DNA of 64,000 nt from Leifsonia sp. AG29 (lineage in GTDB: Bacteria > Actinomycetota > Actinomycetes > Actinomycetales > Microbacteriaceae): assembly GCF_009765225.1 (NCBI RefSeq), contig NZ_VMSF01000001.1, positions 3,286,001-3,350,000 of the forward strand. The letters are read 5' to 3'. The notes below the pieces were generated by a model. That model worked only from the letters and a program-made list of their open reading frames with translations. It searched no databases and was not told where the DNA came from. The translations under genes and the position numbers were made by a program. This document shows, piece after piece, positions 59,297-62,486 of this stretch; the stretch's first letter is position 1, and every line of letters begins with the position of its first letter.

Positions 59297-60046
59297 TCAG
59301 CGCAGCCGCGCCGGTCGCACCCGGACCGGCGCCAGCCAGCTCGCCACGATGACGGCGGTGATCGACCCCGCAGCCATGATGGCCGCCAGCACCACGACTT
59401 GGAACCGCCCTGCCTCCAGCGGCGAGACCCCGCCGAAGATCGCCCCGACGAAGGCGCCCGGGAGCGTCACCAATCCCGTCGTCTTCGTCTGGTCGACGGA
59501 GGGGATGAGCGCCGAGTAGACCGCGGTGCGGGCCTGTTCGATGGTCGACTGGCGCGGGGTGGCGCCGAGGGCGAGCCAGCCCTCCACCTCCTCCCAGTGG
59601 TCGTCGACCGCCTCCACGAAGCGCCGGCCGGCGAGGGTGGCGATGCTCATGGAGTTGCCGATGACGATGCCGCCGATGGCCAGCGCGTAGCGGGCCGAGA
59701 ACTGGATCGCGCCCGTCAAGAAGACGACCGAGAAGGCCACGACGACGCCCGTGCTCATGGCCGTAGCCATCATGAGGGCGTGGTCGCGCGACCAGCCGAT
59801 GCGGTGCGTCGCCGTCGCTGCGGCGACGCTGAACATCACGAGCAGCGCGAGGGCGACCCAGACCGGGTTCGTGATGACGCCGGCGAGCACGACGCTGATG
59901 ACGGCGAGCTGGGCCGCGCCCCGCAGGATCGCGAGCGCGGGCGCCCACCGGTGCGGCACGCGGTAGGCCGCCAGCACGGCGGTCGCCACGAGCGCGAGCA
60001 CAGCCACGCCGAGCACGGTCGGCGCCAGCTCACGGAGGATCGGCAC
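59297..60046 (-). CDS. UPF0014/FetB-type ABC-exporter permease
   Basis: This 249-residue integral membrane protein has about seven helices and the family signature EGWLALGATPRQS plus ALIPSVDQTKTTGLVTLPGA, quoted here as KTTGLVTLPGA. FetB exports iron with an ATPase FetA, but no ATPase gene is present in the window. Confidence 0.85.
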   Translation of the reverse strand: MPILRELAPTVLGVAVLALVATAVLAAYRVPHRWAPALAILRGAAQLAVISVVLAGVITNPVWVALALLVMFSVAAATATHRIGWSRDHALMMATAMSTGVVVAFSVVFLTGAIQFSARYALAIGGIVIGNSMSIATLAGRRFVEAVDDHWEEVEGWLALGATPRQSTIEQARTAVYSALIPSVDQTKTTGLVTLPGAFVGAIFGGVSPLEAGRFQVVVLAAIMAAGSITAVIVASWLAPVRVRPARLR

Positions 60047-60270: not shown

Positions 60271-60639
60271 CTAAACGGACCCCAGGAACGACGACGCAGC
60301 ATCCAGCGACCCCGGGACGAGCCGGTAGTACGCCCAGGTCCCGCGCTTGGAGCGACTGAGGAAACCGGCCTCGACCAGGATCTTCAGGTGATGGGACACG
60401 GTCGGCTGCGAGAGCCCGAGCGGCTCGGTGAGGTCGCAGACGCAGGCCTCCCCGTCGTCGTGGGCGGCGACCATCGAGAGGAGGCGCAGCCGGGCCGGGT
60501 CGGCGAGGGCCTTCATCGCCCGCGCGACGGACACCGCGTTCTCCTCGCTGATCACTTCCTTCGTGATCGGGGCGCAGCAGGCCTGGAGGTCGCGCAACGG
60601 GAGGAGCTCGGTGATCGCCACCTCCCGATTCTCGCCCAT
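60271..60639 (-). CDS. arsR: Arsenic-responsive repressor ArsR
   Basis: This 122-residue winged-helix repressor has an N-terminal Cys21-Cys22 pair (LQACCAPI), Cys66 and Cys68 (EACVCDL) and the HTH PLGLSQPTVSHHLKILVEAG. The Cys-Cys plus third Cys arrangement matches the Corynebacterium glutamicum type of As(III) site (Cys15, Cys16, Cys55 there). Two inverted repeats lie between it and the divergent arsC unit. ATG 60639 is 2 nt from the nearer operator. Confidence 0.92.
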   Translation of the reverse strand: MGENREVAITELLPLRDLQACCAPITKEVISEENAVSVARAMKALADPARLRLLSMVAAHDDGEACVCDLTEPLGLSQPTVSHHLKILVEAGFLSRSKRGTWAYYRLVPGSLDAASSFLGSV

Positions 60640-60641
60640 AT

Positions 60642-60657
60642 ATTGACAACCGTCAAT
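60642..60657. promoter_or_regulatory. ArsR operator 1
   Basis: Perfect inverted repeat ATTGAC-AACC-GTCAAT. It begins 2 bp upstream of the arsR ATG and overlaps a TTGACA box (60643-60648) that reads toward arsC. Confidence 0.7.
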
Positions 60658-60677
60658 GTATGCGTTCACGATGTGTT

Positions 60678-60695
60678 CATCGACAAGCGTCGATG
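60678..60695. promoter_or_regulatory. ArsR operator 2
   Basis: Perfect inverted repeat CATCGAC-AAGC-GTCGATG, of the same design as operator 1 (TGAC/TCGAC arms, 4-bp centre). It lies about 18 bp upstream of the small cysteine-rich ORF. Confidence 0.6.
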
Positions 60696-60712
60696 GAGAA
60701 GGGAGAATGATC

Positions 60713-60781
60713 ATGGGATGCTGCGACAGCGACGACTGCCAGGTGCTGCCCGACGGTTCGTGCTCGCCCGAGTGCTGCTGA
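60713..60781 (+). CDS. 22-residue six-cysteine peptide in the arsenic cassette
   Basis: ATG 60713 (or ATG 60707, two codons earlier) opens a 22-residue frame with cysteines at positions 3, 4, 9, 17, 21 and 22: a CC pair at each end, GCC and ECC. The remaining residues are mainly acidic or small. GGGAGA precedes by 7 nt. It is the first gene after the ArsR operators and 129 bp before arsC. It is not a known family to me; a thiolate metalloid ligand or metallochaperone is the obvious hypothesis. Confidence 0.6.
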   Translation: MGCCDSDDCQVLPDGSCSPECC

Positions 60782-60910
60782 CGGCGACGAGGCCGTCGTC
60801 CGCCCCCGGGCGGCGGCCCCGCGTCGCCGGCGCTGCGGCAGCAGGCCCGGCCCCCGAGCTCCAGATCCGAGTCCCGAGACCCAACACCCCCGACCCAGCC
60901 CCGGAGAACA

Positions 60911-61318
60911 ATGACCGACACCGCCCGCCCCACCGTCCTCTTCGTCTGCGTCCACAACGCCGGCCGATCGCAGATGGCCGCCGGTTTCATGCGAGAACTC
61001 TCCGGCGGCCGTGTCGAGGTCCTCTCCGCCGGCTCCGAGCCGAAGGACCGGATCAACCCGGTGGCGATCGAGGCCATGGCCGAGGAGGGGATCGACATCG
61101 CCGGCAGCACGCCCAAGATCCTGACCACCGAGGCGGTCAAGGAGTCCGACGTCGTCATCACCATGGGCTGCGGCGACACCTGCCCGGTCTTCCCGGGCAA
61201 GCGCTACGAGGACTGGGAGCTCACCGACCCGGCCGGCCGCCCGATCGACGAGGTGCGCCCCATCCGCGACGAGATCAAGCGCCGCGTGGAGGCGCTCCTC
61301 GGCGAGCTCATCGCTTGA
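60911..61318 (+). CDS. arsC: Arsenate reductase ArsC (mycothiol-dependent type)
   Basis: This 135-residue low-molecular-weight phosphatase-fold enzyme has the arsenate-binding loop starting at the nucleophile Cys13 (VCVHNAGRSQMA) and Cys87 and Cys91 (MGCGDTCPVFPG), the arrangement of the mycothiol/mycoredoxin-coupled ArsC of actinobacteria. It reduces arsenate to arsenite. ATG 60911 follows GGAG. The 129-bp gap from the small peptide gene holds a long GC hairpin (GGCGACG with CGTCGCC). Its stop codon region overlaps the end of flgE by 11 nt. Confidence 0.92.
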   Translation: MTDTARPTVLFVCVHNAGRSQMAAGFMRELSGGRVEVLSAGSEPKDRINPVAIEAMAEEGIDIAGSTPKILTTEAVKESDVVITMGCGDTCPVFPGKRYEDWELTDPAGRPIDEVRPIRDEIKRRVEALLGELIA

Positions 61319-62486
61319 GGTTCGTCAGCTCCTGAAGCACCTCGTCCGACGTCGTGATGATGCGGGCGTTCGCCTGGAAGCCGCGCTGAGCGACGATCAG
61401 GTTGGTGAACTCCTGCGACAGGTCGACGTTCGACATCTCGAGCGAGCCGCCCTGCAGCGAGCCGAGGCCGTCCTCGCCGGGGCCCCCGAGCTGCGCGGTG
61501 CCCGAGTTGACGGTGGCGCGGTAGGTCGAGCCTCCCGCCTTCTCGAGCCCGCCGGGGTTGACGAACGTCGCGAGGGCGATGCGGCCGACCGCCTGCTTGT
61601 CCCCGTTCGAGAACAGGCCCGTGATGGTGCCGTCCTTGTCGAGGGTGAACGACTCGAGGGTTCCCGCCGCCTTGCCGTTCTGATCCTTGAACGCGACGGA
61701 GGTGACGCCGGAGTAGCCGGTGAGGGTGGAGAGGTCGACCGCGACGCCGCCCACGGAGAGGACGGGCGCGGGAGGCGCCAACGTTCCGTTCGACTGGAAC
61801 GTCACCGCCGAGGTCCCCGTCTGACCGAGCGAATCCGCGCCCGCGACGTTCCAGGTGCTCCCCGCCTTCGTGAAGGTGAGGGTCAGCTTGCGGGAGGCGC
61901 CGGTCGCGTCGAACACCGAGACGTCGCGCACGAGCTGGTCGCCGTCTGCCGCGTCGGCCGGCAGGTTGCCCGCGACGGTCGCCGCGGTGGTCTGGGTGGC
62001 AGGGGTGACGGACTTCAGCGGGATGGTGATGTCGCTGAGCGCGCCTCCCTGCTGCACGACCCCGTTGACCGCGTTCCAGCCCTGGAGGATCGCCCCGCCC
62101 GGGCCGACCAGTCGGCCGAGCGCGTCCGGGTCGAGCGAGCCGGCGCGGCTGTAGACAGTCTCCCCGCCCGACTTCATGACGAAGAAGCCGTCGCCGTTGA
62201 TCATCATGTCGGTGGCGCGGCCGGTGGACTGCGCGGCACCCTGGGTGAAGTTGGTCGAGATGCCCGCGACGAGCACGCCGAGTCCGATCTGAGCCGGGTT
62301 GGTGCCCCCGGTGCCCGTCTGCGGCGCGCCGGCGCCCTTGACGAGCTGCGAGAGCGTGTCCTCGAACTGCACGGCCGACGCCTTGAAGCCCGTGGTGTTG
62401 ACGTTGGCGATGTTGTTGCCGGTGACGTCGAGCATGGTCTGGTGCGAGCGGAGGCCCGAGATGCCGGAGTAGAGGGAGCGGAGCAT
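61308..62486 (-). CDS. flgE: Flagellar hook protein FlgE
   Basis: This 392-residue protein begins MLRSLYSGISGLRSHQTMLD and carries GNNIANVNTTGFKAS, the D0/D1 rod-hook signature, and ends with NLIVAQRGFQANARIITTSD, the conserved C-terminal helix. It builds the flexible hook. ATG 62486; it follows flgD by 31 nt. Confidence 0.95.
   Translation of the reverse strand: MLRSLYSGISGLRSHQTMLDVTGNNIANVNTTGFKASAVQFEDTLSQLVKGAGAPQTGTGGTNPAQIGLGVLVAGISTNFTQGAAQSTGRATDMMINGDGFFVMKSGGETVYSRAGSLDPDALGRLVGPGGAILQGWNAVNGVVQQGGALSDITIPLKSVTPATQTTAATVAGNLPADAADGDQLVRDVSVFDATGASRKLTLTFTKAGSTWNVAGADSLGQTGTSAVTFQSNGTLAPPAPVLSVGGVAVDLSTLTGYSGVTSVAFKDQNGKAAGTLESFTLDKDGTITGLFSNGDKQAVGRIALATFVNPGGLEKAGGSTYRATVNSGTAQLGGPGEDGLGSLQGGSLEMSNVDLSQEFTNLIVAQRGFQANARIITTSDEVLQELTNLKR

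Follow-up and report, generated by a model that had tools for sequence, protein, structure and literature searches.

A conserved cysteine-rich micropeptide gene beside arsR in Leifsonia and a candidate family of micro-metallothioneins in Microbacteriaceae

Architecture of the locus

The window, a stretch of 64,000 nucleotides from Leifsonia sp. AG29 (contig NZ_VMSF01000001.1, positions 3,286,001 to 3,350,000), contains a compact ars locus in which a 22-codon, cysteine-rich frame lies divergent from the repressor gene arsR. Its features are listed below in window coordinates.

60271–60639, minus strand: arsR, 122 residues if the start is at 60639, an ArsR/SmtB-family repressor (Pfam HTH_5, 62 bits)
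60642–60657, no strand: candidate operator 1, perfect palindrome ATTGAC-N4-GTCAAT, read from the sequence, putatively bound by ArsR
60678–60695, no strand: candidate operator 2, perfect palindrome CATCGAC-N4-GTCGATG, read from the sequence, putatively bound by ArsR
60700–60705, plus strand: Shine–Dalgarno sequence AGGGAG, 7 nt 5′ of the micropeptide ATG
60713–60781, plus strand: micropeptide gene, MGCCDSDDCQVLPDGSCSPECC followed by a stop codon, 22 residues, six cysteines at positions 3, 4, 9, 17, 21 and 22
60782–60829, plus strand: GC-rich hairpin, found by folding, directly 3′ of the micropeptide stop codon, terminator- or processing-like, with no T-run
60911–61318, plus strand: arsC, 135 residues, arsenate reductase of the low-molecular-weight phosphatase family, an optional member of the unit

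A preliminary description had reported the 22-codon frame with its Shine–Dalgarno sequence, the two ArsR-type palindromes upstream, the six cysteine positions and arsR and arsC as the flanking genes; all of these were recovered on re-reading, with the same coordinates for the frame. An alternative in-frame ATG at 60707 is spaced too closely to the Shine–Dalgarno sequence. A Shine–Dalgarno-like stretch also precedes most of the micropeptides listed from the first set of loci described below. A promoter scan gave two weak candidates on the plus strand, one of which (60680–60708) would leave no leader. The arsC product scores 84.6 bits against Pfam LMWPc and 101.9 bits against NCBIfam ars_reduc_gluta, the latter under the cut-off of 157.6. 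No T-tailed terminator was found in the window. Near the ars locus lies a UPF0014 membrane protein gene (59297–60046, minus strand), and a flagellar-hook-like gene, named by eye (61308–62486, minus strand), is convergent with arsC and overlaps it at the 3′ end.

The repressor carries a CC pair near its N terminus (in LQACCAPI) and a CVC motif (in GEACVCDL). Its best sequence match in the PDB is 6j0e, ‘Arsenic responsive repressor ArsR’ (E = 6e-18), with the CC pairs of the two proteins aligned; SmtB (1r1t, E = 1.7e-11) is also among the matches. In CgArsR, the As(III) site consists of Cys15, Cys16 and Cys55 (excerpt of PMC11868830). The CC pair of 6j0e is at 15–16; by hand count, the Cys55 column holds Asp in the Leifsonia ArsR and the two CVC cysteines lie four and six residues past it, so that the third ligand of the Leifsonia protein is uncertain. 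All 16 Leifsonia loci that have an orthologous arsR show operator 1 as a perfect palindrome; in other genera it is mostly imperfect. Of the 40 peptide loci described below, 37 have a palindrome with perfect 6-bp arms at the position of operator 1, of operator 2 or of both, a count made with no shuffled baseline; L121, L142 and L154 have one at neither. We infer that ArsR binds the two palindromes.

Conservation of the micropeptide gene in Leifsonia

A search for ArsR in 28 Leifsonia genomes yielded 16 loci in 15 genomes, with ArsR proteins at least 79% identical. The micropeptide is present at all 16 loci, and it is likewise missing from the 13 genomes without an orthologous arsR. One of the 16 loci (L195) has a stop codon within the arsR match. 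The 13 distinct Leifsonia-type 22-codon DNA sequences (78 pairs) give a pS of 0.358 and a pN of 0.097, and thus a pN/pS of 0.27. Across 18 loci (the 16 from Leifsonia and two from a sister genus), mean pairwise identity is 0.83 within the ORF and 0.78 across the operator region, and falls to 0.40 over the 60 nt 3′ of the ORF. In an alignment of 11 rows, the invariant residues are C3, C4, C9, Q10, L12, P13, D14, G15, C17, C21 and C22. The frame at 60713–60781 is a conserved gene rather than a chance ORF.

The preliminary description had named absence of the frame from relatives as the observation that would speak against it; the frame is kept at 16 of 16 Leifsonia loci, and related or analogous frames are present in 14 more genera. 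The spacing CC-x4-C-x7-C-x3-CC, proposed there as a search pattern, fared differently: it holds in Leifsonia and the sister genus, to which the exact form is limited (two members are one or two residues shorter), and is not kept in other genera.

Cysteine-rich frames beside arsR in other genera

The micropeptide sequence is so short and variable that the wider family was recognised only through position and composition. As the micropeptides of other genera are too divergent for homology search, we used the arsR orthologue as bait in 249 genomes of the family, 347 of the order and 394 of the class, sampling the best-ranked loci rather than all matches. Cysteine-rich mini-ORFs were defined as frames of 10–45 residues with at least 4 Cys and at least 22% Cys. 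The first 70 sampled loci (233,572 bp, both strands) contained 29 of these: on the divergent side of arsR, 22 lie 65–126 nt from its start and 4, at 497–528 nt, immediately follow a divergently transcribed arsC; the other 3 are elsewhere. In all, 198 arsR loci were sampled (654,984 bp, both strands), giving 45 mini-ORFs, of which 39 fall in two narrow slots: 34 lie on the divergent side of arsR at +50 to +150 nt and 5 follow arsC, with 6 elsewhere. These 198 loci comprise 142 from Microbacteriaceae and 56 from other families, and Leifsonia is over-represented among the 34. No cysteine-rich mini-ORF is present in the 56 arsR loci sampled outside Microbacteriaceae, elsewhere in the order and class.

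The resulting 40 loci encode 33 distinct micropeptides under 15 genus codes (Leifsonia and 14 further Microbacteriaceae genera). This locus count includes redundancy, with 16 loci from Leifsonia and with L131 and L133 as duplicates. Examples from other genera are MNGCCDPEEGCCEPGCC, MNECCDPTVCPPGSEEYCGPGCC, MADGCCGTDASCCEGCCENGCCETSCC and MTECCDTSCCTENCADGCICC. The micropeptides of the 14 other genera are related or analogous to that of Leifsonia. One of the 6 mini-ORFs outside the slots, MECCDPTVCDPSACEDCC of L190 (L287:10252–10308), looks genuine; in a Leifsonia ars island with arsC, it comes immediately after a gene for an ArsO-like flavoprotein (52.8 bits, cut-off 425). When the cysteine threshold was lowered for family loci without a micropeptide, 12 loci gave frames unlike the family members. 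L143 has an ArsR nearly identical to that of the peptide locus L118 but no peptide; its arsR–arsC junction has lost the sequence between the genes together with the adjoining end of each, through either deletion or misassembly.

The 33 distinct micropeptides are 12–27 residues long, contain 4–10 Cys (31% of residues after the first) and are net acidic. They include no Lys, Phe or Trp, a single Tyr, and His at only 4 of 661 residues. All 33 end in CC. A strict CC-[not C]4-C motif is present in 20 of the 33 (9 of the 20 that are not of the Leifsonia type), and a C-[not C]3-CC end in 28 (15 of the same 20). The other genera keep the high cysteine content, the terminal CC and, mostly, the C-x3-CC end. 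Three micropeptides have only four Cys, too few for two three-thiol sites. Metallothioneins as a class are small, contain about 20% Cys or more and have few or no aromatic residues; the 33 micropeptides share this composition in size, cysteine content and near absence of aromatics.

Searches by sequence add little at this length. The Leifsonia micropeptide has no match in Pfam or NCBIfam, in which such short queries could hardly score, and 8 of the 33 micropeptides searched against Pfam-A and NCBIfam at E ≤ 1 returned no family, short queries again scoring poorly. A profile search of the PDB gave only unrelated viral envelope chains (E = 0.53 or worse), which we regard as chance. The spacing pattern, run over 84,980 genomes, matched 31 stretches, with such a micropeptide in only four Leifsonia and one Diaminobutyricibacter; the remaining stretches were set aside by frame alone, as low-complexity, long, or without a nearby start or stop. 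Two stretches from Opitutaceae (L085 and L092) are the cysteine-rich ends of longer frames. Viral contigs gave two stretches with the pattern, also regarded as chance, and plasmids gave no micropeptide match. Among 25 plasmid records listed, four Microbacteriaceae arsR loci other than that of Herbiconiux (a genus of this family as well) have no cysteine-rich mini-ORF; in the slot they carry either acr3-arsC or a gene for an oxidoreductase.

In a quickly built tree of 179 ArsR rows, 39 rows are peptide-labelled; 33 of these fall in a single group, itself of 39 rows, and six lie outside it. The group has a support of 89 and is not starred (18 of 168 inner branches are).

Gene order around the micropeptide

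The constant partner of the micropeptide is arsR, not arsC. The arsR–arsC setting of the preliminary description therefore stands for arsR, and arsC is only optional. A peptide profile search found the micropeptide also in genomes away from any close arsC. In Leifsonia, arsC lies behind the micropeptide at 12 of 16 loci and is absent from the fetched stretch at 4 of 16; among the deduplicated peptide loci of the family, it is near 30 of 38 and absent from the fetched stretch in 8. At L061, L062, L063 and L064, the micropeptide is divergent from arsR and the next downstream gene (called with a simple ORF caller) is on the opposite strand. Stand-alone arsR–peptide loci have no adjoining arsC, acr3 or aquaporin gene. 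The order can also be reversed, with the micropeptide behind arsC (L117, L151, L154, L176 and L227); in L291, L301, L302 and L303, arsC precedes the micropeptide, which closes the unit and is followed by a convergent gene. An aquaporin gene is present in 8 of the deduplicated peptide loci, and the micropeptide lies 5′ of it in L142 and in L227 (there behind arsC).

On the arsR strand, an aquaporin-family gene lies directly behind arsR in L115, L117, L123, L124, L131, L135, L139, L140, L225 and others, at roughly −368 to −478 relative to the start of arsR, whether the micropeptide is present or absent. It is possibly an arsenite channel.

Hairpins are common behind the peptide gene. A stem of at least 9 bp occurs within 50 nt 3′ of 34 of 39 peptide genes, compared with 56 of 206 other gene ends (one of the 40 peptide loci was dropped because it had too little downstream sequence). 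The five without such a stem are L117, L131, L133, L183 and L184; in L183, a strong hairpin lies a little further downstream. Most stand-alone loci have the hairpin too, as do most arsC–peptide pairs after the peptide. A putative role, and a possible one, is that of a partial terminator raising the peptide:ArsC ratio.

Relation to arsenite efflux

The preliminary description saw a missing arsenite efflux gene as a gap that a peptide binding As(III) or another soft metal might fill. The gap is borne out at the locus itself, in which no arsenite efflux gene lies beside arsR and arsC. Genome-wide, the picture is less clear, owing to matches to the ArsB/CitMHS superfamily and to Acr3. The Acr3 model has no match in the 28 Leifsonia genomes, that of AG29 included. 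The ArsB model (PF02040) has a match away from the locus in all 28, to a protein of the ArsB/CitMHS transporter superfamily that could be an arsenite pump. In another species (L308), the ArsB-type match scores 140.7 bits against an NCBIfam ArsB cut-off of 457, and CitMHS is the better match in Pfam. As the substrate of these superfamily proteins is uncertain, the statement that efflux is missing is valid for the locus only.

Among 134 family arsR loci (140 less 6 duplicates), 38 have the peptide only, 16 have acr3 only, none has both and 80 have neither; L190 counts here as peptide-less because its micropeptide is 1.4 kb from arsR. The exclusion has a one-sided Fisher p of 0.003, calculated with shared ancestry ignored and for loci spanning about 1.5 kb on each side. 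In the 16 acr3 loci, the match begins 145–190 nt divergent from arsR, which is the slot of the micropeptide. At the level of whole genomes, there is no anticorrelation between peptide and Acr3: Acr3 scores above its cut-off in 3 of 25 peptide genomes and in 34 of 224 others, the two sets being regarded as one draw of 249 family genomes. The 80 loci with neither gene indicate that the micropeptide is not required.

Proposed function

We propose that the micropeptide is a cytosolic, metallothionein-like As(III) sink under the control of ArsR, and give this reading a probability of about 0.65. In this model, As(III), whether taken up by the cell or produced when ArsC reduces arsenate, would free ArsR from both palindromes. 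This release would turn on the micropeptide gene, which is probably translated from its Shine–Dalgarno sequence, together with arsC where it lies behind. The thiols of the micropeptide would in turn hold As(III) or Sb(III) in thiolate complexes and thereby buffer it. As the Leifsonia peptide has two three-thiol sets, C3-C4-C9 and C17-C21-C22, it is predicted to bind two As(III). We put at slightly better than even the odds of a broader proposal, that ars operons of Microbacteriaceae carry a family of arsenic-sequestering micro-metallothioneins (12–27 residues) that replace the Acr3 pump, and in which selection between genera holds only the cysteines and the terminal CC. Selection limited in this way would leave such genes to be missed by homology searches and gene callers.

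The ArsD domain is about 100 residues long, and the micropeptide has about one-fifth of the length of ArsD. To our knowledge, all known metallothioneins are far longer than the micropeptide. Three known systems nevertheless resemble parts of this locus. In Synechococcus, smtB and smtA are divergent genes 100 bp apart with inverted-repeat operators (PMC8790569, in the portion available). The arrangement here is similar, with an ArsR/SmtB repressor divergent from a cysteine-rich gene and palindromes in between to which ArsR would bind. It differs in that the repressor is of the arsenic type, the peptide has only 12–27 residues and the unit may additionally include arsC or an aquaporin gene. The As(III) triad of ArsD, formed by Cys12, Cys13 and Cys18, has the spacing CC-x4-C (extract of PMC4562236), which recurs in C3-C4-C9 of the micropeptide; unlike ArsD, the micropeptide has no ArsD domain match in Pfam, no adjoining arsA or arsB, and a second, C-x3-CC set. 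Finally, divergent arsR and acr3-arsC loci of related genera have an ArsR of the same family and use the same slot, with an efflux pump in place of the micropeptide.

A search of titles and abstract openings of open-licence papers, which is weak evidence, found no such peptide described for an ars locus. We would rate as new the link to arsenic, the extreme shortness and the lack of a match in family libraries, and as known the metallothionein-like composition and layout. According to the available part of a 2025 paper, no specific intracellular arsenic sequestration gene has been found within an ars operon (PMC12093948). If our proposal is correct, the micropeptides would represent this missing gene and would be among the smallest bacterial metallothioneins. 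Binding of As(III) by them would fill the sequestration gap in one bacterial family, make sequestration and efflux comparable at the same regulatory site, and provide very short, genetically encoded arsenic binders for sensors and remediation.

Alternative explanations

Sites made of cysteine only bind many soft metals, and the micropeptide might mainly be a sink for one of these (Zn, Cd, Cu(I) or Pb) under an ArsR that senses that metal. The presence of SmtB among the ArsR matches agrees with this, as does the smtB/smtA pair itself, which has the same layout of a repressor divergent from a cysteine-rich protein and serves zinc (PMC8790569, in the same portion). However, the best match of ArsR is an arsenic repressor whose CC pair aligns with its own, 30 of 38 peptide loci have arsC nearby, acr3 fills the slot in related loci and His is almost absent, all of which make another metal an unlikely main ligand. 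We consider it equally unlikely that the micropeptide is a metallochaperone or thiol partner that, instead of storing As(III), acts as a reductant of ArsC or delivers As(III) to an aquaporin or a transporter. The CC-x4-C match to the triad of the ArsD metallochaperone (PMC4562236, same extract) and the frequent proximity of arsC, with an aquaporin gene in 8 loci, would fit such a role. Against it, stand-alone loci offer no adjoining arsC, acr3 or aquaporin partner, 12–27 residues cannot hold an ArsD-like fold, and the free variation outside the cysteines between genera is unusual for a docking partner.

At the AG29 locus, a short cysteine-rich frame upstream of arsC with a hairpin in between also recalls the polycysteine attenuators of mycobacteria, likewise actinobacterial (Canestrari et al., cited in PMC9031893, as excerpted), in which case ribosome pausing on Cys codons would control arsC. 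This regulatory leader reading was rejected on the gene order given by the simple ORF caller, since a micropeptide that stands alone (L061–L064, with the next downstream gene on the opposite strand) or comes last in its unit (L291, L301, L302 and L303) argues against a leader. In addition, the hairpin is kept at most stand-alone loci and behind most arsC–peptide pairs, the non-cysteine residues of LPDGSC are conserved within Leifsonia under a pN/pS of 0.27, and the frame has a Shine–Dalgarno sequence, whereas the known attenuators are leaderless (PMC9031893, as excerpted). We therefore regard a leader peptide as very improbable. Lower still, at close to nil, is the probability of an untranslated chance frame in GC-rich DNA. 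The frame is very short and belongs to no database family, and a pattern of Shine–Dalgarno sequence, ATG, 10–20 codons, CC and TGA has the micropeptide gene as its sole match in the AG29 genome; the reversed control pattern has two, so this single match carries no weight as to significance. But chance explains neither the concentration of 39 of 45 mini-ORFs in two narrow slots nor the purifying selection, nor an ORF far better conserved than the stretch 3′ of it.

Cysteine tails of longer frames

Cysteine-bearing frame tails were also seen further from arsR, at about +1240 to +1340 on the divergent side, in L169, L236, L240, L242, L257, L264 and L265. Most have LPxTGVC followed by CC at or near the end. 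These tails may be the C-terminal end of a flavoprotein resembling ArsO, and possibly a fused counterpart of the micropeptide.
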